Assembly: GCA_037783545.1 (NCBI GenBank)
Contig: JBBELK010000001.1
Span: 1,984,001 to 2,048,000 of the forward strand
Length of the DNA: 64,000 nucleotides
Reading direction: 5' to 3'
Origin: Henricia sp. BOLD:AAB3569
Lineage: Eukaryota > Echinodermata > Asteroidea > Spinulosida > Echinasteridae
How positions within the stretch are numbered: position 1 is the stretch's first letter; each line of letters opens with the position of its first letter. The translations under genes and the position numbers were made by a program. A model generated the notes under the pieces. The model worked only from the letters and a program-made list of their open reading frames with translations. It did not search any database and had not been told where the DNA came from. Positions 1,847 through 63,673 of the stretch are shown in pieces.

Positions 1847-2180
1847 CAGTGGTGTCTAAGTTCTTTAAGGGCGGGTTCACACTGCACTTACATGTACATG
1901 TATAAGTGGTAATTCTAGAGCTGCATACATACATGTATACATGTATCGGTACTTGACTTATCGTGGGTTCTTTTATTAGATTCTTTTAAATGTTTACTGG
2001 GCATTTGATTATTTTAACTGAATAATTATTTTACCGTTATAGTGCTACAGGGTACAGTATATTAGTCAAATTTTTAATTTTCCTTTTAACGATTGTGGAA
2101 AGTCCAGTTTATATTTGGTTACCCGTAACTTTTATTTGTTTTGGTGTAAATGATGTTATTTTGTATGTTAACTACATGTA

Positions 2181-3145
2181 GGGGAGAGTGGGGTTAGTTG
2201 GAACATTTTTCATAAAATCGTCTATATAAAACACTAACAGAATTTATTAAAGAAAAAGAAAAGTACCACTTTAAGCATACATATTTGGGCTACAAATGGA
2301 GCCTATAAAATGTTAGGACTCGTTGATGGTTTCTCGTATAATCCACCTTGAACGTGACCATGTCAGCTGTTTCAACTTACCCCACCTATGGGGTAAGTTG
2401 AAACATGGTATGGGGTTAGTTGAAACACGGTACGTGGTCATTTAAAAACTACTATAACTTCTGTAATCACCCTAATTAGCAAGGCAGACACTTAAGCTGT
2501 ACATTTGGGCGGTAATTCAATTAATTAATAATTAAGGTTACAAGTAAAAGTAAAATATCTTACAATTTTTCGCCTTTAATTTTTCCTCTTTTGGGGAACA
2601 AAACCAAATGTACAGGCTGAGCTGTACAAGTTCATAGATTATAAACAAGTGAATGTTGTCCCCCTTGCACAAAATGTGAGAAAATAAACTCAAACTTCTA
2701 TCCAAAAGGCACTACCACATGTTCCAACTAATTTTACCCACTCATTTTGTTCCAACTAAACCCGCTGGCCTGTTTGACATTTGCAAGCTTACTACGAAAA
2801 ACAGGGACTTACAATTTGACATTTCGTTAACCTCATTTTGTAGCTTTGTACTATACCTTAAAATAATCACAAACTAGTCGAGTGAATCTATGAACATCAT
2901 TAGCATATAATGCAACATTTCTGAATGGTGAAAAAATGACTCGGAAGGTCAAAAAACAAACATTCCTTTCTCATTTTAATAGGGTTGTAGCACATGTGCT
3001 GTGGACAATATGGTGGATGGCTGTTGCAAATACATGTACTGTAGCAACATATGAGTGGCAGGATGTCATAAAAATAACTACAGCCGTGAAAGGAAAATAT
3101 CAATGTTTCAACATACCCCATGTTCCAACTAACCCAACTCTCCCC
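2181..3145. mobile_element. TA-flanked inverted-repeat element (MITE-like)
   Basis: The ends are 25-bp imperfect inverted repeats starting GGGGAGAGTGGGGTTAGTTG, flanked by TA at 2,179-2,180 and 3,146-3,147. Inside, the same GTTAGTTGGAACA or GTAAGTTGAAACA motif recurs in both orientations. No transposase ORF is present; the short ORFs inside look spurious. The TA duplication suggests a Tc1/mariner-type mobiliser, which is inference. The element separates array A from its 5' module, which resumes at 3,148. Confidence 0.8.
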
Positions 3146-3147
3146 TA

Positions 3148-3660
3148 ATATTTAGTCGTTCCACTTTGTAAAGGTCTTACCACAGTGGTTACATGCACAT
3201 ATATGTATGTATGTAGATGCTCACCAGTACGAGATATGGGTTTTGGCGTCAACTAAACGTAACACTCCCTGTAAATGTCCAACTGCATTGGCTGCATGCA
3301 TAGAGCCACTCACCAGTATGGATTATCCCTAACTCCATAGGGTCAACGGTATAATGGTATTGATTTTGGAAGATAGAGAAATGTTATGGTTATTGTAACA
3401 CTGCACCTCTTGAAGTGACAGTTCAATGTGAATGTCTCACCACAGTGGCTGCATAGGTTGTATGTATGGACACTTACCAGCATTGTTTCTCAAGAGACTA
3501 CTCTGTGAATGTTGGTTGTTTTGGCAAAGCACGTTCTTTGGACTCTTTGGGAAGTTACCGTATGCCTCTCTAAACGGAGGGATTGTCGAATAAGTCCACC
3601 GCGGGCAGAAACAAGTTGTAGTCGGTGAAGACTTAGAGTATGGACATTTTCAGCATCTAC
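3148..3660 (-). pseudogene. 5' module of zinc-finger array A (decayed fingers)
   Basis: The plus strand shows broken copies of the finger consensus (CTTACCACAGTGG, CACCAGTATGG) followed by a conserved tail (TTCTTTGGACTCTTTGGGAA, AAACGGAGGGATTGTC, CAGAAACAAGTTGTAGTC). The same order occurs 5' of arrays B1, B2, C, D and E. Here it is separated from array A by the 965-bp TA element. No long ORF survives. Confidence 0.65.
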
Positions 3661-3922
3661 GCATAAATTTTACAAGACATTAATACAAAATAATAGTCCG
3701 CTACCAATAAATTAGTTTACAAACATTTGGTGGTTTTTCAACGATATCTTCGGAAATATGCTGCCTAGAAGTATGGGAGATTAAGATTCGTAATGAGAAA
3801 AATATGACAGAGGTTAGATACCGGGTAGACCCAGTTGGCTTCGTTTTTGACGATTTTGGTTTTTTTTCTTTTGGCCCAACGACTCGGGCAATACATATAG
3901 GCCTACCGCTTACAGCTGAACT
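3661..3922. other. Unassigned noncoding stretch
   Basis: Noncoding DNA between the array A 5' module and the first TTAA element. I see no ORF of note, no clear inverted repeat and no RNA gene. Confidence 0.5.
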
Positions 3923-3926
3923 TTAA

Positions 3927-4460
3927 AGGGCCTGTGACATCCTAAACAACTTTGTGCCTAAGCTTTGCTTCATAATGACGGATTACTTGTTCAGCAAGAC
4001 ATACTATTGTTCGTTTGGATGTAAAATCAATAAAAGGTGGCATTTTTCAACTTTGAAGATTTCATTGCAATAAATCACAGAGGGCGCTGTTTTGAGTGCA
4101 TCACATAAGGAAGACAGAAGGGAAAAGTTAAGAAAAAACATAAGACTTCAAGTTGGACTTGTGGCAAATTGCTGCAGTTTCTACCCCAAGTTTTGTCATG
4201 GCTTACAGCAGGCAACATGTAAAACAAACTCAAACAGCCATGGATTACAAATGTTTCAGGAAAATTGAGAAAAAAGTGAAATCGTTTGTGCACAGTTGAA
4301 TGTGATTTTCCTGTGTTTGCCTCTTGTGACGTCGTGACCTTGGTCATGAATATGCATATTTGCATTAGCATAAAAACTAAAAACCTTTGTTTTAACCCCC
4401 AAAGCAAGCTCCAAATAGGATTTTTATGACTTTAACTGAGTACAGTGGTTTTAAAGCCCT
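3927..4460. mobile_element. TTAA-flanked element, family T2 (first copy)
   Basis: Flanked by TTAA at 3,923-3,926 and 4,461-4,464, with short ends AGGGCCTGTGACATCC and AGCCCT. An inverted copy lies at 22,064-22,634, where the empty site is known. The 110-codon minus ORF inside (4,075-4,407) has no recognisable domain and is broken in the other copy, so I treat it as chance. TTAA duplications are typical of piggyBac and Kolobok transposases; which one moved this element is unknown. Confidence 0.78.
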
Positions 4461-8784: not shown

Positions 8785-8965
8785 TCCCTTGAAACACGTT
8801 TCGATCGTTCTTTTGAAACGCGTTTCAATCGTTCTTTCGAAACGCGCGTTTCGATCGTTCTATCGAAATGTTTGGATGTTTTTTCGAAACGCGCGTTTCG
8901 ATCGTTCTTTCGAAACGACGTATTGGTCGTTCTTTCGAAACGACGTTTCGATCGTTCTTTCAAAA
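8785..8965. repeat. GAAACGCGTTTCGATCGTTC tandem repeat, copy 1
   Basis: Imperfect tandem units of roughly 24 bp built from TTTCGATCGTTCTTTCGAAA, themselves near-palindromic. The same block is at 23,300-23,478 in segment copy 2. The Arg-rich and Phe-rich ORFs on either strand are products of the repeat, not genes. Confidence 0.8.
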
Positions 8966-9077
8966 CACTTTTTGATTGTTTTTTTTAACACTATAATTTG
9001 AAGCACCCTTGAAGCACTTTTTGGTACCTAAAGTCACTTTTCAAACGTTTCCTCTAACACTTTTTCAATCACTTCTT

Positions 9078-10790: not shown

Positions 10791-10867
10791 GGTCTACTGC
10801 GACGGAACGTCAACGTCAGCAGCGGTATAACGGTACCGCTGAAAGTTGTCGTTTCTCTGTGGACGTA

Positions 10868-11575
10868 CACTGTAAAGATTAAGTATTCATTTTGCACCAA
10901 CAATTAGTCAAACTGAAAATAAAAATTAGTCTTTGAACACGTGACTAATTTTGCAATCTAAAAGACTAACTTTACCTTTTTTGACTAATCAATTTTAGGA
11001 AATAACTATATAATCTCAGTCTATGCAAAGACTAATGCAGATTTTTGTAAGACTAATTTGTTTGAAAGACTAATGAGATCCAAATTACTAATCATGTTAG
11101 TCACCCGAGTTCCGGAAGACGAATTAAATTGCAAATGACTAATTCTATGACTAATTAATTCGCGAAATACTAATTCCTTACAAAATTAGTCAGGCTTTGG
11201 AAGCTTCCAAAGTTTGACCTCCCTCCCTCTGAACACTGACGTTAAATATGTCTTTCTTTAAGAAAATGAGCACGGCTCCATTGTCAGCTGGAAACTGTTT
11301 TTGTTGTCGTATTTCAAGCCAAGAACACAAGACGAACATTTGCCCTTTTTGCAGCTGCTTTTGGCAGTTTGTGCACCAAGCGTGAGTCCGCGTCTTATCG
11401 CTGGGTGTATTCCCAGCAAGAAAAATGATGTCGAAATGTCAGACTAATTTTTATTAGTCATTGCACAAATGTAATGACTAATCTTTCGACTGGGTGACTA
11501 AATAAATATTAATCAAATTATACCATGAAATTACTAATTGATTTTGGTCAAATGACTACTTATTTTTTTACAGTG
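10868..11575. mobile_element. hAT-like element with arrayed GACTAAT motif, copy 1
   Basis: Ends CACTGTAAA and TTTACAGTG are inverted repeats of a type common in hAT elements. Both subterminal regions carry about twenty GACTAAT/ATTAGTC words in mixed orientation, likely binding sites for a mobilising protein (inference). A 45-codon cysteine-rich ORF lies inside. An 8-bp target-site duplication was not found. Segment copy 2 has the same element split by the 3.75-kb foldback. Confidence 0.7.
11248..11385 (+). CDS. 45-residue cysteine-rich ORF inside the GACTAAT element
   Basis: ATG at 11,248 opens a short frame with cysteines arranged CFCC and, after about 15 residues, CPFCSC. This resembles a small zinc ribbon or the start of a larger zinc-binding domain. 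GTGAGT follows the stop region at about 11,382 and could be a splice donor, so this might be one exon of an element-encoded protein whose rest is lost. The same ORF is intact at 26,778-26,915, but that copy is a recent duplicate and gives no independent support. Function unknown. Confidence 0.35.
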   Translation: MSFFKKMSTAPLSAGNCFCCRISSQEHKTNICPFCSCFWQFVHQA

Positions 11576-11577
11576 CA

Positions 11578-12068
11578 GGGGCGTTCGAGATGCTTACACC
11601 GGGTAACACCAACTTACACCGGAGCGTTCTTTTAGCCATCACGTGATACACGAGTCTGCCACCACTGCCCGAGCTCGCGGCTGGGTCTCTGGTGTAATGA
11701 CGTCATCTAGTTACCGCGAGTAGTAAAACATGGCGGACAGTTTGGAATCGCGACGTGAGTCGAGTACATAGAAAAACACAGATTTATGACACAAAATAAA
11801 AGGGAATAGGGCTGTAATTAAATACGTTTTCCTTAATCAGTAGATGGCTGCGGGCATTGACAAAGTTTATTGCGGTACTTTAGGGCAACTGTTTTTGCGT
11901 AGCGCCGGCTTTATTTTTCATCGTGAGTCAAACGATAACAGCGTTTATAAAGCTCACCCGGCAACAACCTTTGACATGTGTTCCCAGAAACCCTGTGTCG
12001 TTCGTTTTGCATCTTCTGGAGGCTGAATTCCCCCGGTGTAAACCCCGTGTAAGCATCTCGAACGTCCC
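11578..12068. mobile_element. GGGGCGTTCGAGATGCTTAC element, copy 1
   Basis: Ends GGGGCGTTCGAGATGCTTAC and GTAAGCATCTCGAACGTCCC are inverted repeats with further ACACCGG pairing. The interior has a CRE-type palindrome TGACGTCA at 11,698-11,705, an ATG 25 bp later, GTGAGT at 11,755 and a 60-codon ORF at 11,844-12,026 after a pyrimidine-AG. This looks like the 5' end of a gene caught in an element, but joining at the obvious splice sites gives a frame with an early stop. Coding function is unsupported. Confidence 0.65.
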
Positions 12069-12445
12069 TATTGTGAACGTCAAAAATTAAGCGCGCCTAA
12101 AATACAACGGCAGCGGAACGGCAAAATGCTCGTGTGGACCGTACTATATGAACCCCGCACGTTTTCTTAAAGGCAAGGCTCGTCAGCAATGCGCGCGCGC
12201 CAAATTTGTGCCAAGGGGGATCCTAGCTCTTTAAGTATACGGTCAACACGAGAGCATTTTGCCGTCGCGTTCCGCTGCCGTTAGATTGAGCGCGCGCCCA
12301 ATTTTTGACGTTCAGTGTGGACGTCCACAGAAACGATAACGGTAGCCGTTAACGGCAAACGCCCAAAGTTGAAAAGTTTCAACTTTTAGCGGTACCGCTG
12401 ACGTTGACGTTCCGTCGCAATCCACTGGAGTGGACGCACCCTTAA

Positions 12446-17599: not shown

Positions 17600-17905
<306 letters not shown>

Positions 17906-19264
17906 TCACAGTGGCTGCATGGGTACATACGGGCGCTCACCAGTATGGGTTCTCATGTGTACATTCAAGTTACCACTCTGTATAAATGTCTTATCACAGT
18001 GGCTGCATTCATACGGCCGCTCACCAGTGTGGGTTTTTATGTGTCTATTCAATGCACTATTCTGAGTAAATGTCTCACCACAGTGGTAGCATACATGCGG
18101 CCGCTCACCAGTATGGGTTCTCATGTGTCTCTTCAATGTACTTCTCCATGCAAATGTCTCATCACAGTGGCTGCACACATATGGCCGCTCTCCAGTATGG
18201 GTTCTCAAGTGTGCATTCAAATTACCATTCTGTATAAATGTCTTATCACAGTGGGTGCAAACATATGGCCGTTCACCAGTATGGGTTCTCATGTGTCTCT
18301 TCAATGCACTATTCTGAGTAAATGTCTCACCACAGTGGCTGCATACATGCGGCCGCTCACCAGTATGGGTTCTCATGTGTCTCTTCAATGCACTATTCTG
18401 AGTAAATGTCTCACCACAGTGGCTGCATACATGCGGCCGCTCACCAGTATGGGTTCTCATGTGTCTCGTCATTGCACTTCTCCATGCAAATGTCTCATCA
18501 CAGTGGCTGCATACATATGGCCGCTCTCCAGTATGGGTTCTTATGTGTGTCCTCAAGTGAACACTCTGTTTGAATGTCCTATCACAGTGGCTGCATACAT
18601 ACGGGCGCTCACCAGTATGGGTTCTGATGTGTGCATTCAAGTTACCACTCTGTATAAATGTCTTATCACAGTGGCTGCATTCATATAGCCGCTCACCAGT
18701 GTGGGTTCTCATGTGTCTCTTTAATGCACCATTTTGAGTAAATGTCTCACCACAGTGGCTGCATACATGCGGCCGCTCACCAGTATGGGTTCTCACGTGT
18801 CTCTTTAATGCACTATTCTGAGTAAATGTCTCACCACAGTGGCTGCATACATACGGCCGCTCACCAGTATGGGTTCTCATATGAGTCTTCAAAGCACTAT
18901 TCTGAGTAAATGTCCCACCACAGTGGTTGCATACATATGGCCGCTCACCAGTATGGATTCTCATGTGCATCTTCATGGCACTTTTCCATGCAAATGTCAC
19001 ACCACAGTGGCTGCATACATATGGCCGCTCACCAGTATGGGTTCTCATGTGACTTCTCAAATTACTACTTTCTGTGAATGTCCTATCACAGTGGTTGCAT
19101 GCGTACGGCCGCTCATGGATTATCATGTGTCTCTTCAAGTGACCACTCCGTGTAAATGTCTTATCACAGAGGCTGCATGCATATGGCCGCTCACCAGTAT
19201 GGGTTCTCACGTATGTCTTCAAGTTACTTTTCCATGCATAAGGTTGCTCATCAGTGGTTTCCAT
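17906..19264 (-). CDS. C2H2 zinc-finger array B1
   Basis: A 452-codon ORF with 15 near-perfect C2H2 fingers after a decayed N-terminal unit ([16 protein letters not shown], no CxxC). Linkers are TGERP throughout except a shortened one after finger 1 (IIHERP). Helix types repeat ([36 protein letters not shown]), showing internal duplication. Expected role: nuclear DNA binding; target unknown. The C-terminus is abnormal: a 4-bp insertion at 17,921-17,924 changes the frame within a CxxC, giving the tail YVPMQPL and stop. The start shares the MxTTD signature of arrays B2, C and E, but it lies at a frame change in an older finger, so the true first exon may be elsewhere. Confidence 0.82.
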
Positions 19265-23299: not shown

Positions 23300-23478
23300 C
23301 TTGAAACACGTTTCGATCGTTCTTTTGAAACGCGTTTTAATCGTTCTTTCGAAACGCGCGTTTCGATCGTTCTATCGAAATGTTTCGATGTTCTTTCGAA
23401 ACGCGCGTTTCGATCGTTCTTTCGAAACGACGTATTGGTCGTTCTTTCGAAACGACGTTTCGATCGTTCTCTCAAAAC
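23300..23478. repeat. GAAACGCGTTTCGATCGTTC tandem repeat, copy 2
   Basis: Same imperfect units of roughly 24 bp as 8,785-8,965, with a few substitutions. Open frames across it are repeat artefacts. Confidence 0.8.
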
Positions 23479-23641
23479 ACTTTTTGATTGTTTTTTTTAA
23501 CACTATAATTTGCCCCTTGAAGTACATTTTGTTACCTAAAGTCACTTTTCAAACGTTCCCTCTAACACTTTTTCAATCACTTCTTCTAAATACTCCGAAA
23601 ATTATAAAGTTGAGAATTGTAAACAGTCCACAGCAATTGGG

Positions 23642-26303: not shown

Positions 26304-26943
26304 AGGTGCGTCCACACTGAAGTGAATTGCGACGGAACGTCAACGTCAGCAGCGGTACCGCTGAAAGTTGTCGTTTCTCTGTGGACGTCCACACTACACT
26401 GTAAAGATTAAGTAGTCATTTTGCACCAAAAATTAGTCAAACTGAAAATAAAAATTAGTCTTTGAACACGTGACTAATTTTGCAATCTAAAAGACTAACT
26501 TGACCTTTTTTGACTAACCAATTTTAGGAAATAACTAATCTCAGTTTATGCAAAGACTAATGCCGATTTTTGTAAGACTAATTTGTTTGAAAGACTAATG
26601 AGATCACATCCAAATTACTAATCATGTTAGTCACCCGAGTTCCGGAAGACGAATTAAATTGCAAATGACTAATTCTATGACTAATTAATTCGCGAAATAC
26701 TAATTCCTTACAAAATTAGTCAGGCTTTGGAAGCTTCCAAAGTTTGACCTCCCTCCCTCTGAACACTGACGTTAAATATGTCTTTCTTTAAGAAAATGAG
26801 CACGGCTCCATTGTCAGCTGGAAACTGTTTTTGTTGTCGTATTTCAAGCCAAGAACACAAGACGAACATTTGCCCTTTTTGCAGCTGCTTTTGGCAGTTT
26901 GTGCACCAAGCGTGAGTCCGCGTCTTATCGCTGGGTGTATTCC

Positions 26944-29900
26944 TATGGGGCGCCGTTCGTCAACTAATTATTTAGGCGAATTATAGCATGTTTTTTCCAT
27001 GGTTTATCTTAATTCTGTGTAAATAATGCATTTGTGTCAAAGGCCGTTTATGGTTTACAAACAACTCGTTTCTTTACAAAACAGGAAATATACTTGTAGC
27101 TGTGCAAATTCATTATTTACAAATAATGAAAATTACCTCGGCGTTCCATACTTTATTAATGAAACCGACCAGTGTACATTTCAATGGTTTACAAACAAGA
27201 GAATTGTATCGTTCATAGACAATTCCATGGTTTATAAATAATGAATACTGCACATTGCTGCACGTTTTTCTGGTTTACAAATAATACCAAACTATCCAGT
27301 GCGCAATTAGGCCCTACATGGTTTATAAACCAAGAAACTTGCACCGGGGTCTGATTTTCTATGGTTTATAAATAATGAAAATTGGTTAGTGGACGTACAA
27401 TTCCATGGTTTATAAACAATCTAAACTGCGCCGTTCTAATCAATTTTGTGGATTCTGTGGTTTGTAAACAATTACAAATAGTCAATAGGCGTGCATTTTG
27501 ATGGTTTGTAAATAATTGAAAGTGATCGTTGGCTCACAATTTCATGGTTTATAAATAATGAAAATGAACTAGTTAGTGTGTCGCAAAATTTCATGGTTTA
27601 CAAACAGAAAAAAATAAAGCTTTATACACTTGTCTGTCGTTTGTAAAGGTTGACTATCGATAAAATAAGAAGTATTATGCACTCGGTACATCTCAAAATA
27701 CGATCATTGACGAAAAATTGAAGGGTTTGTAAATAATGAAAATGGACTAGTTAGTGTGTCGCAAAATTTCATGGTTTACAAACAGAGAAAATTAAAGCTT
27801 TATACACGTTTCTGTCGTTTGTAAAGGTTGACTATCGATAAAAAGAGAAGTATTATGCACTCGGTACATCTCAAAATACGATCATTGACGAAAAATTGAA
27901 GGGTTTGTAAACCATGAAAAACACGCTTCATAAACGTTTATTATAATCCAGTAACGTTGCGAGAGCAATGGGTGCGTTCAATTAGCTATCATCGAGTCAT
28001 AGGGGTGCTCGTTCATAGTGTGAACAGTCCGGCAGACCATGGGAACAAAGGTATTTATGTGTACAGCTCATCGAACGCCACGGCACAGCCTTCAGCGCGC
28101 GCGCGGGAAATTCCAGGTTCATTACCTGTCTAAACCTAGCCGCGTATTGGGCCCAAAATCCAGCCGCGGTCTCAGCCGCGGTTTCAGCCGCGGTCTTAAA
28201 ATCTCAAACGGATGTAGTAAAAGGTGATAGAATAATAATAATAATAACACATGCATTTGTAAAGCGCCATCTATCTATGTAAACATATTCTTATTTTTTA
28301 TTACACGAGTTCTGAGACTCTGGCAAAGAAATTGTTAAAATTCTCATAGAAATGTATTTCTTTTCACGGTGTTACCTAACTTAGTCATCTCTACCGGGCT
28401 GATTAAATTTTAAATGGTAATTTTAATTAATTAATTTTTAATTAATTTTAATTAATGAGGAGTCTCCATTTTTTACCCCAAAAGTGCCAAAAATTTAAAA
28501 GAAAACGTACACCACATAGTTTTAAAAATTAGCATTTGTATTACATACTAGTAATCCAATTAATCCGTTCATGGGGCAGATCAAATTTTGGAGGAAGCCA
28601 AATCGGTACACTAATTAGTGCTTAATTAAAGGGATAATAAGGAGTCTGGTTTCCACTAAAAAAGTGCCGAAAACTTAATACTGCTGACAAAATGGTCCCT
28701 TTAAAATAAAATGTACACCACATAGTTTGAAAAATTTGCATTTTTATTACATAATCCGTTTGAAACTATGTAGTGTACATTTTCTTTTAAAGGGACTATT
28801 TTGTAAGCAGTATTCAGTATTCGGCACTTTTGGGGTGGAAAATGGAGACTTCTCATTAGCCCTTTAATTAAGCACTAATTTGTGGACCGATTTGGCTTCC
28901 TCCAAAATTTGATCTGCCCCATGGACGGAACAAACGGAATATGTAATAAAAATGCAAATTTTTCAAACTATGTGGTGTACATTTACTTTTAAAGGGAAAT
29001 TTTGTCAGCAGTATTAAGTTTTCGACACTTTTATAGTGGAAACCAGACTCCTTATTAGCCATTTAATTAAGCACTAATTTGTGGACCGATTTGGCTTCAT
29101 CCAAAATTTGATGTGCCCCATTGACGGATCAAACAGATTATGTAATAAAAATGCTAATTTTTGAAACTATGTGGTGTACATTTTCTTTTAAAGTCACCAT
29201 TTTGTCGGCAGTATTAAGTTTTCGGCACTTTTGGGGTGGAAAATGGAGACTCCTCATTAATTAAAATTAATTAAAAATTAATTAATTAAAATTACCATTT
29301 AAAATTTAATCAGCCCGGTAGATGACTAAGTTAGGTAACACCGTGAAAAGAAATACATTTCTATGAGAATTTTAACAATTTCATTGCCAGAGTCTTAGAA
29401 CTCGTGTAATAAAAAATAAGATTTTATCACCTTTTACTACATCCGTTTGAAATTTTAAGACCGCGGCTGAGACCGCGGCTGGATTTTGGGCCCAATACGC
29501 GGCTAGGTTTAGTCGGGTAATGAACCTGGAATTTCCCGCGCGCGCGCTGAAGGCTGTGCAGTGGCGTTCGATGAGCTGTACACATAAATACCTTTGTTGC
29601 CATGGTCTGCCGGACTGTTCACACTATGAACGAGCACCCCCTATGACTCGATGATAGCTAATTGAACGCACCCATTGCTCTCGCAACGTTACTGGATTAT
29701 AATAAACGTTTATGAAGCGTGTTTTTCATGGTTTACAAACCCTTCAATTTTTCGTCAATTATCGTATTTTGAGATGTACCGAGTGCATAGTACTTCTCTT
29801 TTTATCGATAGTCAACCTTTACAAACGACAGAAACGTGTATAAAGCTTTAATTTTCTCTGTTTGTAAACCATGAAATTTTGCGACACACTAACTAGTCCA

Positions 29901-30692
29901 TTTTCATTATTTACAAACCCTTCAATTTTTCGTCAATGATCGTATTTTGAGATGTACCGAGTGCATAATACTTCTTATTTTATCGATAGTCAACCTTTAC
30001 AAACGACAGACAAGTGTATAAAGCTTTATTTTTTTCTGTTTGTAAACCATGAAATTTTGCGACACACTAACTAGTTCATTTTCATTATTTATAAACCATG
30101 AAATTGTGAGCCAACGATCACTTTCAATTATTTACAAACCATCAAAATGCACGCCTATTGACTATTTGTAATTGTTTACAAACCACAGAATCCACAAAAT
30201 TGATTAGAACGGCGCAGTTTAGATTGTTTATAAACCATGGAATTGTACGTCCACTAACCAATTTTCATTATTTATAAACCATAGAAAATCAGACCCCGGT
30301 GCAAGTTTCTTGGTTTATAAACCATGTAATTGCGCACTGGATAGTTTTGTATTATTTGTAAACCAGAAAAACGTGCAGCAATGTGCAGTATTCATTATTT
30401 ATAAACCATGGAATTGTCTATGAACGATACAATTCTCTTGTTTGTAAACCATTGAAATGTACACTGGTCGGTTTCATTAATAAAGTATGGAACGCCGAGG
30501 TAATTTTCATTATTTGTAAATAATGAATTTGCACAGCTACAAGTATATTTCCTGTTTTGTAAAGAATCGAGTTGTTTGTAAACCATAAACGGTCTTTGAC
30601 ACAAATGCATTATTTACACAGAATTAAGATAAACCATGGAAAAAACATGCTATAATTCGCCTAAATAATTAGTTGACGAACGGCGCCCCATA
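26944..30692. mobile_element. 3,749-bp foldback element with arrayed TGGTTTAYAAAY motif
   Basis: Ends TATGGGGCGCCGTTCGTCAA and TTGACGAACGGCGCCCCATA are exact inverted repeats. They are flanked by TATTCC at 26,938-26,943 and 30,693-30,698; copy 1 has one TATTCC at 11,408-11,413, the empty site. Nearly the whole element is two inverted arms of about 1.8 kb around 28,818. Each arm carries a palindrome-like word, TGGTTTATAAACCA or TGGTTTACAAATAATGAAAA, roughly every 60 bp over the outer kilobase. A 180-bp unit follows in two copies (27,553-27,910), then an AT-rich core. Mirror-image 71-codon ORFs in the arms are chance. No transposase is visible. The superfamily is not known to me. Confidence 0.88.
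27553..27910. repeat. Two-copy 180-bp direct repeat in the left foldback arm
   Basis: The segment from AATGAAAATGRACTAGTTAG through TTGACGAAAAATTGAAGGG occurs twice in tandem, with a few differences, and is mirrored in the right arm at about 29,726-30,085. It includes the TATCGATA and GGTTTACAAACAGA words. Confidence 0.78.
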
Positions 30693-30862
30693 TATTCCCA
30701 GCAAGAAAAATGATGTCGAAATGTCAGACTAATTTTTATTAGTCATTGCACAAATGTAATGACTAATCTTTCGACTGGGTGACTAAATAAATATTAATCA
30801 AATTATACCATGAAATTACTAATTGATTTTGGTCAAATGACTACTTATTTTTTTACAGTGCA

Positions 30863-36734: not shown

Positions 36735-37179
36735 TGTATGGATTCTCGTGTGCGACTTCAAGTGACCATGCACTGTGTGAATGTCTTATCACAGTGGCTG
36801 CATGAATACGGCCGCTCACCAGTATGGGTTCTTATGTGTCCTTTTAAGTCACAACTCCGTGTGAATCTCTTATCACATTGGCTGCATACATGCTCACCGG
36901 TATGGGTTTTCAAGTGGTTCTTCAAAACACCGCTCTCTGTGAATGCCTTATCACAGTGGCTGCATGCATATGGCTGCTCACCAGTATGGGTTCTCATGTG
37001 TCTCCAATGCACTTCTAGTATGCAAATGTCTCATCACAGTGATTGCATACATGGCCGCTCTCCAGTATGGGTTATAATGTGTGTCTTCAAGTGATCATTC
37101 TGTTTAAATGTCTTATCACAGTGGCTGCATGGGTACATACGGGTGCTCACCAGTATGGGTTCTCATGTGTACATTCAAG
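36735..37179 (-). pseudogene. Out-of-frame finger remnants 3' of array B2
   Basis: Four or more finger units continue beyond the frameshift in B2; 36,758-37,012 still reads three fingers. The 4-bp insertion found in B1 is also present here at about 37,131. Confidence 0.7.
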
Positions 37180-38223
37180 TTACCACTCTGTATAAATGTC
37201 TTTATCACATTGGCTGCATTCATACGGCCGCTCACCAGTGTGGGTTTTTATGTGTCTATTCAATGCACTACTCTGAGTAAATGTCTCACCACAGTGGTAG
37301 CATACATGCGGCCGCTCACCAGTGTGGGTTCTCATGTGTCTCTTCAATGTACTTCTCCATGCAAATGTCTCCTCACAGTGGCTGCATACATATGGCCGCT
37401 CTCCAGTATGGGTTCTCATGTGTGCATTCAAGTTACCATTCTGTATAAATGTCTTATCACAGTGGGTGCAAACATATGGCCGCTCACCAGTATGGGTTCT
37501 CATGTGTCTCTTCAATGCACTATTATGAGTAAATGTCTCACCACAGTGGCTGCATACATGCGGCCGCTCACCAGTATGGGTTCTCATGTGTCTCTTCATT
37601 GCACTTCTCCATGCAAATGTCTCATCACAGTGGCTGCATACATATGGCCGCTCTCCAGTATGGGTTCTTATGTGTGTCCTCAAGTCATCACTCTGTTTGA
37701 ATGTCCTATCACAGTGGCTGCATACATACGGGCGCTCACCAGTATGGGTTCTGATGTGTGCATTCAAGTTACCACTCTGTATAAATGTCTTATCACAGTG
37801 GCTGCATTCATATGGCCGTTCACCAGTATGGGTTCTCATGTGAGTCTTCAAAGCACCATTTTGAATAAATGTCTCACCACAGTGGCTGCATACATATGGC
37901 CGCTCACCAGTATGGATTCTCATGTGCATCTTTATGGCACTTTTCCATGCAAATGTCACACCACAGTGAATGCATACATATGGCCGCTCACCAGTATGGT
38001 TTCTCGTGTGACTTCTCAAATTACTACTTTCTGTGAATGTCCTATCACAGTGGTTGCATGCGTACGGCCGCTCATGGATTATCATGTGTCTCTTCAAGTG
38101 ACCACTCCGTGTAAATGTCTTACCACAGTGGCTACATGCATATGGCCGCTTACCAGTATGGGTTCTCACGTGTGTCTTCAAGTTACTTTTCCATGCATAA
38201 GGTTGCTCATCAGTGGTTTCCAT
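37180..38223 (-). CDS. C2H2 zinc-finger array B2, frameshifted
   Basis: A 347-codon ORF with 11 complete fingers and a broken twelfth, after the same decayed N-terminus as B1 ([16 protein letters not shown]). Compared with B1 it has three fewer fingers: one B2 finger (helix IQNGALKTH) stands for three in B1 and one (THNSALKRH) for two, so copies differ by whole 84-bp units. Its finger 6 helix reads KQSDDLRTH where B1 finger 8 has KQSVHLRTH, a change at contact positions 2 and 3. An extra T at 37,201-37,203 shifts the frame and ends the protein at [12 protein letters not shown]. Likely a decaying duplicate. Confidence 0.8.
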
Positions 38224-41205: not shown

Positions 41206-42249
41206 TTATATCGAGTGTCCACTAGTATGGGTTCTCATGTGTGACTTCAAGCGACTACTCTGTGTGAATGTCTCATCACAGAGGCTGCATACATACGGCC
41301 GCTCACCAGTATGAGTTCTCATGTGTATTTTTAAGTCAATTCTCCGTATGAATGTCTTATCACAGTGGCTGCATACATACGGTCGCTCACCAGTATGGGT
41401 TTTCAAGTGGTTCTTCAAAACACCGCTCTCTGTGAATGCCTTATCACAGTGGCTGCATACATACGGCCGCTCACCAGTATGGGTTCTCATGTGCCTCTGC
41501 AACTTACTACTCTGTGTGAATGTCTTATCACAGTGGCTGCATGCATACGGCCGCTCACCAGTATGGGTTCTCATGTGCCTCTGCAACTTACTACTCTGTG
41601 TGAATGTCTTATCACAGTGGCTGCATACATACGGCCGCTCACCAGTATGGGTTCTCATGTGAATTTTTAAGTTACTTCTCCTTGTGAACGTCTTATCACA
41701 GTGGCTGCATACATACGGTCGCTCACCAGTATGGATTCTCACATGTGTCCTTAAGTGACAACTCTGTGTGAATGCCTCAGCACAATGGCTGCATACATAC
41801 GGCCGCTCACCAGTATGGGTTCTCATGTGTATTTTTACGTCACCTCTCCGTATGAATGTTTTATCACAGTGGCTGCATACATACAGTCGCTCACCAGAAT
41901 GGGTTCTTGTGTGTGTACTCAAGTGATCACTCTGTGTAAATGTCTCACCACAGTACATGTAGCTGCATACATATGGCCGCTCACCAGTATGCTTTCTCAT
42001 GTGTTTCTTCAAGGCACTATTCTGAATAAATGTCTCACCACAGTGGCTACATGCATACGGCCGCTCACCAGTATGGGTTCTCATGTGCGCCTTCAATTGA
42101 TCACTTCTTGTGAATGTCTGACCACAGTGGCTGCATACATGCGGACGCTCACCAGTATGAGTTCTGATGTGTCTCTTCAAAGCACTTTTCCATGCAAATA
42201 TCTCACCACAGTGGCTGCACGCGTACGGCCGCCCATCAGTGGTTTTCAT
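41206..42249 (-). CDS. C2H2 zinc-finger array C
   Basis: A 347-codon ORF starting [16 protein letters not shown] with 12 fingers. Eleven have the standard CxxC. Finger 4 reads CSYMYC (Cx4C) because six extra bases (TACATG) lie between the cysteine codons at about 41,955. Fingers 8 and 9 (helix TQSSKLQRH) are an almost exact 84-bp duplication. Linkers are TGERP. The end (THTSGHSI, stop) follows the last His pair, so unlike the other arrays this one ends after a complete finger. It is the best candidate in the cluster for an intact product. DNA binding in the nucleus is expected; target and effector domain are unknown. Confidence 0.85.
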
Positions 42250-43220
42250 TTTTCTTTAAGTTGTTATGCTTTGCGAATGTCTTACCACAGTGGTTGCATG
42301 CAAAGAGCCCCTCACCAGTATCATGGGTTATATAATTTCTCTTCAAGTGACAGTTCAGTGTGAATGTCTTTATACCGACGCTAACTTACTAACATCGTTT
42401 CTCAAAAGACTGCTCTGTGAATGTCCCACAGTGGCTGTATGACAATTCAGTTGTTTTGGCTAATCATGTTTTGTCTTTGGACTCTGAGAAGTTCATCGGG
42501 CAGAAATGTGTAGGCATATTCTGTGAAGACAGTATGAGTTCTCATGTGCCTTCCTAAGTCACTACATGTACTCTGTTTGAATGTCTCACCACAGTGGTTG
42601 CATACATACGGCCGCTCACCAGTAAGGGTTCATTATGCGTCACTTCAAGGCACTATTATGAGTAAATGTCTCACCACAGTGGCTGCATGCGTACGGCTTC
42701 ACACGAACACTTAGTTTGAATGTCTTATCACGGTAGCTACATACGTATGGTTGTTTATCAGTAGTTTTCATAGTTCTTTAAGTTTTTACGCTTTGTGAAT
42801 GTTGTACCACATGTATGTTTACAGATGCTTGCTAGTATGAGTATGGGCTTTCACATCAAGCAAACGTCCAACTCCCTGTAAATGTCCCACCACATTGGCT
42901 GCATACATAGAACCACTCACCAGTCATGGTTATATCATGTCTCTTCAAGAGACAATTCAGTGCGAATGTCTCACTGTAGTGGCTGCATGGATGTGGACAC
43001 TTACCAGCATTGTTTCTCAAGAGCCTACCCTGTGAATGTCCCACAGTGGCTGCATATGACAACTCAATTGTTTTGTAAAATCCTGTTCTTTGGACTCTTC
43101 GGGAAGTTGTACCACTCTAAACAGAGGAATTGTCAAGGAAGTTGTAGTCTGTATGTGAATATTTCACTGCAGTTTGAAGTATGGACGGTGTTCAGCATCT
43201 GCACATAGATTTTTAGAAGA
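42250..43220 (-). pseudogene. 5' region of array C: decayed fingers and repeated module
   Basis: Two broken copies of the upstream module lie in tandem (42,250-42,540 and 42,780-43,220), separated by decayed finger units at 42,540-42,780. A 68-codon minus ORF (42,856-43,062) has a partial finger (CSQCGGTF). None is an intact array. Confidence 0.6.
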
Positions 43221-43915: not shown

Positions 43916-44128
43916 CCTTGTCTTTCTTCAAGTGACTACCCTGTGCGAATATCTTACCACAGTGGCTGCAAACATGCCGCTCACCAGTACGGGTTCTCAT
44001 GTGTCTCTTCAAGTGAATACTCTATGTGAATGTCTCGCCACAATGGCTGCATGCATTACGGCCGCTAACCTGTATGGGTTCTCATGTGTCTTCAAGTGAC
44101 TACTACCAGTACTTGTGAATGTCTTACC
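43916..44128 (-). pseudogene. Finger remnants 3' of array D
   Basis: Two or three finger units with small deletions, out of frame, homologous to 46,800-47,037 beyond array E (both begin near TGAATGAATCCTTGT). Confidence 0.65.
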
Positions 44129-44701
44129 TCAGTGGCTGCATGCATATGGCTGCTCACCAGTATGGGCTCTCGTGTGTCTCTTCAAAGCACTATTCCGAGT
44201 AAATGTCTGACCACAGTGACTGCATACATATGGTCGCTCACCAGTATGGGTTCTCATGTGCGTCTTCAAACCACTTTTCCATGCAAATGTTTGACCACAG
44301 TTGCTGCATACATACGGCCGCTCACCAGTATGGGTTCTCATGTGCCTATTCAATGTACCATGCTGTGTAAATGTCTCACCACAGTGGGTGCATGCATATG
44401 GCCGCTCACCAGTATGGGTTCTCATGTGCGGCTTCAAGTGACTACTAGTTGTGAATGTCTCACTACAGTGACTACATGCATATGACCGCTCACCAGTATG
44501 GGTTCTCATATGCGTCCTCAAGTTACCCCTCAGTGTGAATGTCACACCACAGTGGCCGCATGCATACGGCCGCTCACCAGTATGGGTTCTTATGTGTCTT
44601 TTTAAGTCAGTATTCTGTTTGAATGTCATATCACAGTGGCTGCATACATAGGGCCCTTTATTAGTGGTTCTCATGTTTATGTTATGTGAATGTCTTACCA
44701 C
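44129..44701 (-). CDS. C2H2 zinc-finger array D, ends at a nonsense Cys codon
   Basis: A 190-codon ORF with six complete fingers after a remnant N-terminus (MRTTNKGP). The stop at 44,129-44,131 is TGA in place of the second Cys codon (TGT) of a seventh finger, and the frame continues GKTF after it. Fingers 3-6 (helices [36 protein letters not shown]) match fingers 9-12 of array E in order, so D and E are tandem duplicates. Probably a truncated or dying member. Confidence 0.78.
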
Positions 44702-46795: not shown

Positions 46796-47037
46796 GGACT
46801 GACCTATGTCTGAATGAATCCTTGTGTTTCTTCAAGTGACTACCCTGTGCAAATGTCCCACCACAGCAGCTGCATGTATACGGCTGCTCACCAGTATGGG
46901 TTCTCATGAGTGTCTTCAAGTGACTACTCTGTGAATGTCTCACCACAGTTGCTGCATACATGTACATGCCGCTCTCCAATATGGGTTCTCATGTGTCTTC
47001 AAGTGAATACTACTTGTGAATGTCATACCTCAGTGGC
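46796..47037 (-). pseudogene. Finger remnants 3' of the transposon in array E
   Basis: Decayed finger units continuing array E beyond the inserted element, homologous to 43,916-44,128. Confidence 0.65.
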
Positions 47038-47268
47038 CAGGGGCGGATCCAGGAATTTTTCCAGGGGTGGGGTTCGGCCCGTCAGATTTTGTTATATATA
47101 CATTATGCAATCTATCACTTGTACATTGCTGAGTGATGCACTTACCTTATGATGGGGAAGACTTGTATATCGGGAAAAATAACCTCCTTGGATTTCTCTT
47201 TTTTTTTTTTTTTTTTTAAGAGCAGGGGGGGTTTTGACCCCCAAAACCGCCCCCTGGATCCGCGCCTG
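47038..47268. mobile_element. GGCGGATCC element inserted in array E
   Basis: Ends CAGGGGCGGATCC and GGATCCGCGCCTG are inverted repeats. The flanks GTGGC (47,033-47,037) and GTGAC (47,269-47,273) form a 5-bp duplication with one change; the uninterrupted finger sequence in array D has GTGGC once. It includes a run of T at about 47,200-47,218. The same family with 5-bp duplications is at 54,675-55,724 and 61,772-61,883. Confidence 0.82.
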
Positions 47269-48315
47269 GTGACTCCATGCATATGGCTGCTCACCAGTAT
47301 GGGCTCTCGTGTGTCTCTTCAAAGCACTATTCCCAGTAAATGTCTGACCACAGTGACTGCATACATATGGTCGTTCACCAGTATGGGTTCTCATGTGCAT
47401 CTTCAAGACACCTTTCAATGCAAATGTTTGACCACAGTTGCTGCATACATATGGCCGCTCACCAGTATGGGTTCTCATGTGCCTATTCAATGTACCATGC
47501 TGTGTAAATGTCTTACCACAGTGGGTGCATGCATACGGTCGCTCACCAGTGTGGGTTCTCATGTGCGGCTTCAAGTTACTACTAGTTGTGAATGTCTCAC
47601 TACAGTGACTACATACATATGGCCGCTCACCAGTATGAGTTCTCAAGTGTATCTTCAAGTCACACCTCAGTTTAAATGACGTGCAACAGTAGCTGCATAC
47701 ATACGGCCGCTCACCAGTATGGGTTCTCATGTGTCTCTTCAAAGAACTATTCCGAGTAAATGTCTCACCACAGTTGCTGCATACATATGGCCGCTCACCA
47801 GTATGGGTTCTCATGTGTCTCTCTAATGTACCACGCTGTGCGAATGTCTCACTACAGTAGCTACATGCATATGGCCGCTCACCAGTATGGGTTCTCAAGT
47901 GTATCTTCAAGTCACCACTCTGTGTGAATGTGTCACCACAGTGGCTACATGCATATGGCCGCTCACCGGTATGGGTTGTCATGTGTGTCTTCAAGTTACC
48001 ACTCTGTGTGAATGTCTCACCACAGTTGCTGCATACATATGGCCGCTCACCAGTATGGGTTCTCATGTGTCTCTTCAATGTACCACGCTGTGTGAATGTG
48101 TCACCACAGTGGCTACATGCATATGGCCGCTCACCAGTATGGGTTCTCATGTGTGTCTTCACGGCACTTTTCCATGCAAATTTATCACCACAGTGGCTGC
48201 ATGCATACGGCCGCTCACCAGTATGGGTTCTCATGTGCTGCTTCAAGTGACCACACCGTGTGAATGTCTTACCACAGTGGCTGCATACATATGGTCGTTC
48301 ATCAGTGGTTTTCAT
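47092..48315 (-). CDS. C2H2 zinc-finger array E with transposon-derived C-terminus
   Basis: A 407-codon [11 protein letters not shown], 12 complete fingers, then a broken thirteenth (YAWSH) where the frame enters the inserted element and continues [15 protein letters not shown], a Lys run, and about 40 more residues. The element is at 47,038-47,268. Finger 8 has an atypical CxxCC (CSYCCTSF). Fingers 9-12 match array D fingers 3-6. The protein as read would be a normal zinc-finger array with an unrelated basic tail. Array E beyond the element survives only as remnants. Whether the chimera is transcribed is unknown. Confidence 0.8.
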
Positions 48316-52661: not shown

Positions 52662-54202
52662 GTCGGACCCAAACCAAGTCGGACCTGGACCAAGTCGGAC
52701 CCGGACCAAGTCGGACCCACGACTGACTCGGACCTGAACCAAGTCGGACCTGGACCAAGTCGGACCTAGACCAAGTCGGACCCGGACCAAGTCGGACCAA
52801 TGCATGACCAAGTCGGACCCACATATATCTATTAACAATAATAGATATAATAATAAATAATAGATATCTGTGGTCGGACCCTAGCCCAGGCCAGGTTTGA
52901 CGTCGTCTTCATTGCATTACGAAAATACGAGTCAGTGACGTCCAGGTTACGATGTCTCTAAACAGGGGGACTGAAACTTGCACATTTTCTTTTGAGCTAT
53001 TTTACCTTTTATTGGACGTCGAATACATAGGCCTAGACAGAATTATAAATAAAATTAATAAGTGTAAAGTGAAAAACTGAGTTATTTAGCATTTTAGTCG
53101 ATTTTATACCCACTGCAAAGTGCGCCCTCTATTGTGTCCGCCATACTTCAAAAAGGCCAATGTAGTATAGTGATGTCCCCTAACTTGGCGCACTTCGACA
53201 ACTCACTGGAAATCCGCTCACCTTATAGCAAAACCCCCTAGCAGAATTAGTTGAAACTTACACACCTTGTAGTATAATTCATAGGCTCCAAGAAAAAGTA
53301 ATACTTTAATATTTTGACTCATCAACAAGTACAAAATAACACAAACAATCAGGACAAAACGATGAACACTTTTTTCCCGAAATCGCCCCGACTGTCCCCT
53401 AACGTGGAGCGCGTCGCTGATTGGCTGAAATGGTTTGATGCCTTACTACGATGGCCCACAAAGACCACTTGCACGCACACACTGTGACACTGTACACAAC
53501 GCCAGTATGCCTGGTTTTATTAACGTGAAATGCCTATTACAGGCTTCCGTGTATGGTGTCGTGACAACCTGAAGCAAACGGCGATGCCTTCACATTCCGG
53601 TGAATTTCTAGTAACTGAATGATTCTTCTCCGTATTTCAGTTTTATAATTTATGAAGGTACTTGAGAACTTTATTTCTATTTAATGCCAAGTGCAACAGA
53701 TTGTTTATTGCGCCAAGAGAGAACGGAAAGTCAATTGAAGCCCGCCACGTTAGGGGCCGCGCCACGTTGGGGGACATCAACAATATGCGGTACGGAGTCC
53801 GACCTGGGCTAGTCGGACCCATGAAGTGCGCGGTTCAGTGTCGCTGGACTTTTGTTTGATTAATGCAGTTTATCATCAAAATATGTATGAATAGGCCTAC
53901 ATGTTTCTTGAACATAAAATTTTTTTTTGCACTTTTGACTCCTTTTACGATCGTAATTAGAACCAATTTCCATTGAAAAAGTGCACGTATAGATCGTGCA
54001 CACGTCATGGGTCCGACTTAGTCATGCATGGGTCCGACTTGGTTTAGGTCCGACTTGGTTTGGGTCCGACTTGGTTCGGGTCCGACTTGGTCCGGGTCCG
54101 ACTTGGTCCAGGTCCGAGTTGGTCAAGGGTCCGACTTGGTCCGGGTCCGACTTGGTTTGGGTCCGACTTGGTTTGGGTCCGACTTGGTTTGGGTCCGATT
54201 TG
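52662..54202. mobile_element. Foldback element with arms of 16-bp tandem repeats
   Basis: Left arm 52,662-52,820 is about nine units of GTCGGACCCGGACCAA. The right arm 54,009-54,202 is about twelve units of the reverse complement. The inner ends mirror each other through a variant with TGCATGA. Between lie about 1.2 kb with a second inverted-repeat pair (53,171-53,777) and GTCGGACCCTAGCCCAGG with its near-complement. Arm ORFs (RLGPGPTW repeats) are artefacts. Confidence 0.82.
53171..53777. mobile_element. Nested element, TGATGTCCCCTAACTTGGCG ends
   Basis: The left end TGATGTCCCCTAACTTGGCG pairs with CGCCACGTTGGGGGACATCA on the right; CTAACGTGG and CCACGTTAGGGG repeat the pattern inside. No recognisable ORF. 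Confidence 0.6.
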
Positions 54203-62539: not shown

Positions 62540-63673
62540 CAGACAAGTCGACCGTTGAGACAACTCGACTTGAGACAAGTCGACCGTTGAGACAACTCGA
62601 CCGTTGAGACAACTCGACCGTTGAGACAACTCGACTCGAGACAAGTCGACCGCTGAGACAACTCAGCGGACACACTTAAATTTTGAAATTAAAATAACAT
62701 ATTTTATTTTCAAACAATAAAAACATGTCGACCAGTAGCTAAGATAATCTCAGCTCTTTTTTTATCATTTTTCATTGGGATGTGGTCTCTTAGCAGTAGA
62801 GCTGAGAGAAGTTATGAACATGAACACGCCATCACAAAAACAGGACAAAACAAATGTGTCATTTTCTCACCGTGACACCCTAATTCCCCCTAAAACTCAC
62901 CCAAACCTTGTCAGGCAAAACCCCTACGCAGGTCCTTGAGGGAAATAACCAGCCACGATGATTATTTTGCTAACAATTCCAGCAAAACAAACCGGTATGC
63001 TCACAGCCTAACCGTTGTCATGTTGTGTTTAAAAAGTCTATCTGCCTAGTCTGTGTACAAAGGAATACCGATGCGCATTGGTTACCAGACTTGACCTTAA
63101 CTTCTGGACGTTAAGGTCAAGTCTGGTAACCAATGCGCATTGGTATTCCTTTGTACACAGACTAGACACTTGGTTGTTTTTGAACAAGACAAAAACGGCT
63201 AGGCTGTGAGCATACCGGTTTGTTTTGCTGGAATTGTTGGCAAAATAATCATCGTGGCTGGTTATTTCCCTCAAGGACCTGCATAGGGGTTTTGCCTGAC
63301 AAGGTTTGGGTGAGTTTTAGGGGGAATTAGTGTGTCACGGTGAGAAAATGACACATTTGTTTTGTCCTGTTTTTGTGATGGCGTGTTCATGTTCATAACT
63401 TCTCTCAGCTCTACTGCTATAAGAGACCACATCCCAATGAAAAATGATAAAAAAAGAGCTGAGATTATCTTAGCTAGTCGACCAGAACGGCCGTGTCACT
63501 GAATGGGTAAGCACCATCACCTCCCCCCTTTTACTTGTCTCAACGGTCGACTTGTCTCAACGGTCGACTTGTCTTTCCATTTATCGCACATACGGTCGAG
63601 TTGTCTCAACGGTCGAGTTGTCTCAACGGTCGACTTGTCTCGAGTCGAGTTGTCTCAACAGTCGACTTGTCTG
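62540..63673. mobile_element. Foldback element with arms of 17-bp tandem repeats
   Basis: The left arm 62,540-62,665 is tandem GACAACTCGACCGTTGA-type units; the right arm 63,535-63,673 is the complement. Inner arms (CTTAGCAGTAGAGCTGAGAG, GTGTCATTTTCTCACCGTGA, AGGTCCTTGAGGGAAATAAC) pair over more than 300 bp to a centre near 63,105. The inner part is shared with 49,905-50,459, which lacks the tandem arms. No transposase. Confidence 0.82.

Follow-up and report, generated by a model that had tools for sequence, protein, structure and literature searches.

A foldback element in the window (the whole 64,000-nucleotide stretch of DNA that was analysed) is probably a recent insertion of a non-autonomous, foldback-shaped cut-and-paste transposon of the IS3EU type, in which two long inverted arms carry arrays of self-complementary words that would form the transposase-binding region (Table 1). 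The borders drawn by the first-pass annotation proved exact to the base, as did the TATTCC duplication around the element and the empty site that had been placed in the other segmental copy. Most of the element consists of the two inverted arms with their internal tandem repeats; this makes it a foldback element, a term that describes shape and not a descent group. The outermost inverted pair (26944–27309 and 30327–30692) extends over 366 nt at 99% identity and the next (27315–28005 and 29638–30328) over 691 nt at 100%, with the inner pairs at about 87–98%. When the arms are compared in full, element positions 1–1819 and 1988–3749 are 91% alike.

Table 1. Coordinates of the foldback element, its parts and its empty site in the window.
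Feature	Position	Strand	Basis or remark
Whole foldback element, 3,749 bp, ends TATGGGGCGCC...GGCGCCCCATA	26944..30692	.	Sequence, arm alignment, family copies
Left copy of the 6-bp target site duplication, TATTCC	26938..26943	+	Sequence; the same 6 bp stand singly at 11408–11413
Right copy of TATTCC	30693..30698	+	Sequence
Left terminal bases TATGGGGCGCCGTTCGTCAACTAATTA	26944..26970	+	21–27 of them are the whole remnant of an arm in L082, read as a deleted copy
Left arm, matching the right arm in inverted orientation (91% overall, 99–100% in the outer kilobase)	26944..28762	+	
Right arm	28931..30692	-	Inverted-repeat comparison
Left dyad array, 18 TTTRYAAA-centred words, mostly 43–49 bp apart	27047..27919	+	
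Right dyad array, mirror of the left	29723..30589	-	
Tandem repeat of the left arm (178-bp unit, about 2.1 copies)	27546..27920	+	
Empty site with a single TATTCC, in the paired segmental copy	11408..11413	+	Flank alignments

The insertion site can be read from the flanks of the element. The left flank aligns to 10798–11413 (95.2%) and the right flank to 11408–12408 (99.7%). Because these two matches overlap by exactly 6 bp, which are TATTCC, positions 11408–11413 represent the unoccupied site, and it follows that either the insertion is later than the segmental duplication or the duplicate derived from an unoccupied copy. The whole window was also scanned for TAYGR..YCRTA end pairs separated by 0.1–30 kb, bordered by the same 6 bp on both sides and matching in 12 or more of 16 end bases; the foldback element was the sole return.

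The element belongs to an abundant and uniform family that, judged by its sequence, appears young and devoid of genes of its own. A 122-bp end query returned 435 candidates in the 740.7-Mb assembly, and all of the 40 that were scored were 100% identical to it. A 26-bp end, with up to three mismatches allowed, matched 215 times in forward and 201 times in reverse orientation (reversed control, 0); the first 100 of these 416 matches, those listed, are all without mismatch. Among the matches listed, 39 spans shorter than 8 kb were paired by eye, with a median of 3.9 kb and a range of 2.9 to 7.9 kb; pairs set further apart (12.7, 15.4 and 52.9 kb) and single ends do not enter these figures. Twenty places were fetched, 19 with both ends and one (L039) with the left end alone; they were picked from perfect matches to the 122-bp end, and degraded copies are therefore under-represented among them. 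The first-pass annotation had proposed that the flanks of other copies be read for 6-bp duplications, and these are indeed present: the flanking 6 bp are identical in 14 of the 19 paired-end copies (window copy included), with sequences that differ from copy to copy, agree at five of six positions in two more, and do not match in the other three. All 19 copies have TATGG..CCATA termini; the 16-bp end was the search term, but the element borders were set independently by the duplications. Over the outer 700 bp the median difference between copies is 1 mismatch, which suggests recent spread. At 141 codons, one stop-to-stop frame is the longest that these 19 copies contain. Homogenisation of the two arms within each copy was considered and set aside, as the median over the outer 700 bp is 1 mismatch both between and within copies; the partner arm is the nearest, or tied for nearest, for 20 of 38 arms.

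One further place has a distinct structure. At L082 (G000:C1359:71450-72150), 21–27 bp of a family end directly abut the inner end of the opposite arm, which is most simply explained by an internal deletion that removed the centre of this copy and nearly all of one arm. A search for ends that share 17 bases but not bases 32–33 gave one match, L082 itself (control, 0), and no separate family. Candidate related families that share the first 13 bases but not bases 19–20 were rejected as being at chance level (2 matches against 1 in the control).

The arms are dominated by their dyad words. The first 1000 bp of the element contain 18 TTTAYAAA/TTTGTAAA words, against a mean of 0.5 and a maximum of 4 in 500 first-order Markov simulations, and 37 of the 51 such words in the window lie inside the element. 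The dense array of self-complementary words reported earlier for the outer arms is thus borne out, but the period of about 60 bp then given for it is not: spacings in the left arm are uneven and mostly 43–49 bp (19, 43, 72, 43, 43, 48, 43, 44, 52, 44, 43, 49, 43, 86, 49, 43 and 86 bp). Over the outer 700 bp of the left arm in the 19 copies, the spacing is 43–44 bp in 132 of 237 cases, the remainder being 19, 41, 47–49, 52 and 72 bp. Beyond the 8-bp core, the flanks of the words mirror each other with a correlation of 0.70, a value reached by 0.1% of 2000 column permutations. Letter by letter, the left flank most often reads TTCCATGG and the right flank, taken from the opposite strand, TTTCATTG. 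Of the 22 places in the word TTCATTATTTACAAATAATGAA, 20 are self-complementary.

The duplication and the ends point to a described superfamily. According to the first-pass annotation, no known family combined these features; yet a 6-bp duplication together with TA..TA termini is the published mark of IS3EU, and TAYGG..CCRTA ends are that of its fungal members. In the covered portions of the two sources, IS3EU elements are described with TA..TA termini and usually 6-bp duplications (PMC10045372), and the fungal members with inverted ends of over 30 bp finishing TAYGG..CCRTA (PMC12730594). The foldback element agrees with IS3EU (with GingerRoot) in all of these respects, its inverted ends (the 366-nt pair at 99% and the 691-nt pair at 100%) being well over 30 bp, and related transposases are present in the same genome. 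It differs in that it has no transposase, has arms of about 1.8 kb and carries dyad words 43–49 bp apart. Neither an array nor a foldback form of IS3EU appears in the portion of the IS3EU literature covered, and the words 'tandem', 'palindrom' and 'subterminal' are absent from the covered text of PMC10045372. A foldback-shaped IS3EU member with a dyad array was likewise not found in the covered parts of the IS3EU, GingerRoot and foldback literature, although a catalogued Repbase or Dfam consensus may exist. As far as these descriptions extend, the superfamily is already known, and what would be new is a foldback-shaped member with a dyad array. IS481EU has a related transposase group, and its Trichomonas vaginalis signature, TNT..AYA, is compatible with the TAT..ATA of the foldback element; however, its duplications are given in the covered part of the source as about 4, 15 or 25 bp (PMC10045372), as opposed to 6 bp in 14 of the 19 foldback copies.

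IS3EU-type transposases are present in the same genome. In a profile search, the rva_4 integrase core (PF24764) gave 53 matches in the source genome and none in 14 control genomes. Seven chosen frames, all of which pass the rva_4 cut-off, align over the catalytic region, with the six others 39–56% identical to the first. Below threshold, these frames display domain matches to rve (in two), HTH_21 (in one) and Clr5 (in one). Among PDB chains, the transposase profile had no match at E 1 or better. The transposase copies at L058 and L059 (G000:C829, about 380.1–407.8 kb) lie 28 kb apart and are 99.97% alike over 2.9 kb.

The ends of the transposase-bearing elements were placed beside the gene, at the point where copies with different flanks diverge. 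Three families have readable ends, and all begin TACGR: the L056/L058/L059 family (TACGGAAGCG), the L061/L065 family (TACGAAGACC) and the L055/L079 family (TACGAAGGCC and TACGAAAGCC). A fourth end, TACGGAGCCC at L068, was placed by eye and is less certain. It lies with its array about 1.15 kb 3' of the gene, past the stretch that L068 shares with L066 and L067, and both may belong to a neighbouring element. An instance of TATTGGGCGCCATT near the L064 array is oriented away from the gene and was attributed to chance. Arrays of the L056–L059 family sit immediately internal to the end, whichever way the end faces. GTTTCG is the outer flank both of the L058 end and of an end in L059 that faces it on the same contig at a distance of about 27.6 kb (computed by hand). 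This shared flank suggests a very long or nested IS3EU-type element bordered by a 6-bp duplication.

Several of the transposase genes stand beside arrays of their own. Arrays with 20–23-bp units in at least 8 copies were found in 9 of 30 fetched rva_4 loci, a sample in which many loci may stop short of the end of their element. In eight of the nine the array is within about 0.5 kb of the gene match, the ninth being the distant one of L068. Further loci with arrays are L073, L074, L075, L077 and L078 (in L073 and L077 at about 1 kb from the frame), whereas L076, L080 and L081 have none and L079 has two units. Seven array word types with 20–23-bp units thus occur near rva_4 transposase genes. 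The circular self-complementarity of the unit is above that of shuffles in five of the seven types (p below 0.02) and borderline (0.05–0.09) for the L064/L068 and L074/L075 units. The foldback word is unlike all seven, and its spacing is 43 bp as against 20–23 bp. Its ATTATTT/AAATAAT half resembles the L064/L068 unit, a likeness to which we give no weight because the stretch is AT-rich.

These observations suggest how the family might move. The element would be mobilised by an IS3EU-type DDD/E transposase, related to those of bacterial IS3 and IS481 and supplied by another element. Its recognition sites would comprise the TATGGGGCGCC ends as well as the subterminal dyad rows, the latter probably bound through an N-terminal helix-turn-helix region; the enzyme would align the two arms and then cut the element out, and insertion with a 6-bp stagger would leave the 6-bp duplication. 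The nearest tested precedent for a binding region of this kind is Galileo, whose duplication is 7 bp and whose ends differ from those of the foldback element. In the covered part of the source, Galileo is placed in the P superfamily, with a THAP domain, and its transposase domain binds several sites in the long, internally repeated arms of the element (PMC3688188). Galileo and other Drosophila Foldback elements share with the present family arms of over 1 kb with internal tandem repeats; the several transposase-binding sites within the arms are, in the descriptions covered, a feature of Galileo. Tetris of Drosophila virilis, as described in the part of its source covered, is foldback-like and apparently non-autonomous, has tandem units of ~220 bp inside its arms and shares its end portions with the element DAIBAM (PMC4079207); both its units and its host are different.

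A broader reading, which we put forward tentatively, is that the IS3EU-type transposons of this lineage might each carry a family-specific 'address' of subterminal dyad rows, read by the helix-turn-helix of the matching transposase, with word and transposase changing together and with foldback forms arising as this address grew to take up nearly the whole element. It would cover both the 20–23-bp units near the transposase genes and the 43-bp spacing in the foldback family. The little-studied IS3EU group would gain a foldback form present in some two hundred copies or more, and a single genome with seven array types close to related transposase genes provides a testable case for the purpose of foldback arms. 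In the covered literature on that purpose, binding tests concern Galileo only (PMC3688188). The point of interest is that the array is common to the group in kind, not in word.

Several results weigh against the IS3EU-type reading: the three copies without a duplication, the different word and spacing, the rva_4 loci without arrays, the short-unit arrays elsewhere in the window and the outcome of the search for a partner. Among the loci and spans searched, no transposase-bearing element was found with the TATGGGGCGCC end or with TTTRYAAA arrays. GGTTTAYAAA or TTTRTAAACC is present in none of the 30 rva_4 loci fetched of the 53 matches, and nine further stretches at rva_4 genes contain 0–3 TTTRYAAA cores each. 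The family end has no exact match in the 30 loci; it has four 14-letter matches with up to three mismatches, which is about the chance expectation. Searches for GGTTTATAAACCATG pairs at gaps of 15–45 and for TTATTTACAAATAAT pairs at gaps of 15–40 returned 0 matches. Transposase remnants were sought in the 19 copies and in parts of two longer spans, with the IS3EU-type transposases of the same genome as queries; this search, which recovered 29 of the 30 rva_4 loci, gave only hits of 12–14 residues at E 0.047 or worse.

The longer relative encoding a transposase that the first-pass annotation had called for did not emerge from the spans fetched. The 6,439-bp copy (L021) was rejected as an autonomous form, as it contains a nested, different element with 86-bp inverted ends. 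The 7,861-bp and 6,388-bp spans were rejected as well: the parts fetched hold other inserts, one of them LINE-like by eye, and no transposase match. In L072, one of the long spans, positions 2559–4257 contain several AACAGATCTGTTAAC palindromes, which are unlike the TTTRYAAA words. An autonomous copy may be among the end matches beyond the 100 of 416 listed.

Alternatively, the arrays might be selfish sequence with no role in binding, left as a by-product when long inverted repeats undergo slippage and hairpin replication. Such an origin would accord with the number of 178-bp units, which varies between copies and, by exact-word count, is unequal in the two arms of 6 of the 19 copies, and with the frequency of short-unit arrays in the window. 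We regard it as unlikely, given that the bases between words are less conserved than the mirrored flanks and the 8-bp cores (the cores being the search term) and that seven array types occur near transposases of one kind. Membership of a different superfamily whose duplication is 6 bp or close to it, be it Dada, a Polinton derivative or an undescribed group, is quite unlikely too; on this view the IS3EU-like ends of the element would result from convergence. In its favour, the searches recovered no transposase bounded by the family's own ends, the clear likeness to the transposase-bearing families is limited to the first ~5 bases (TAYGR), and Polinton, in the covered part of the source, likewise makes 6-bp duplications (PMC10045372); against this, the combined marks agree with IS3EU, namely the 6 bp, TA..TA, TAYGG..CCRTA, arrays inside the ends and transposase relatives with a similar layout in the same genome.

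The array had also been likened to forkhead-type sites, and this likeness holds in part. The forkhead core is GTAAACA in its strict and RYAAAYA in its loose form. The loose core exceeds expectation over the first 1000 bp of the arm (16 occurrences against a mean of 4.2 and a maximum of 13 in 500 simulations), but it overlaps 13 of the 18 array words and is largely part of the TTTRYAAA dyad itself. The strict core occurs once in the first 1000 bp (0.36 expected), in 1 of the 18 array words, and hence is not repeated along the array, so that forkhead binding finds little support in the sequence. That the dyad array is a host transcription factor site of forkhead or homeobox type, giving a promoter, a tether or replication timing, is very unlikely, since the conserved feature is the TTTRYAAA dyad with its mirrored flanks and since related transposons have unrelated dyads (for example TTCGTACGTACGAA or TTCGTTGCAACGAA), which suggests element-specific rather than host-specific sites.

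The window contains further repeats. An inverted pair of arrays with 16-bp units (GTCGGACCCGGACCAA) is located at 52662–52798 and 54029–54202, about 1.2 kb apart, and an inverted pair with 17-bp units (AGACAACTCGACCGTTG) at 62541–62664 and 63533–63672. In the end scan of the window, neither pair was associated with a TAYGR end with 6-bp flanks; as short-unit arrays thus occur without such ends, an array alone is not diagnostic. An array with 25-bp units (GAAACGACGTTTCGATCGTTCTTTC) occurs twice, at 8791–8984 and 23303–23496, and was probably doubled through the segmental duplication. C2H2 zinc-finger gene arrays with an 84-bp unit are found at 162–1825, 17641–19222, 36773–38181, 41220–42321, 43925–44655 and 46825–48306.
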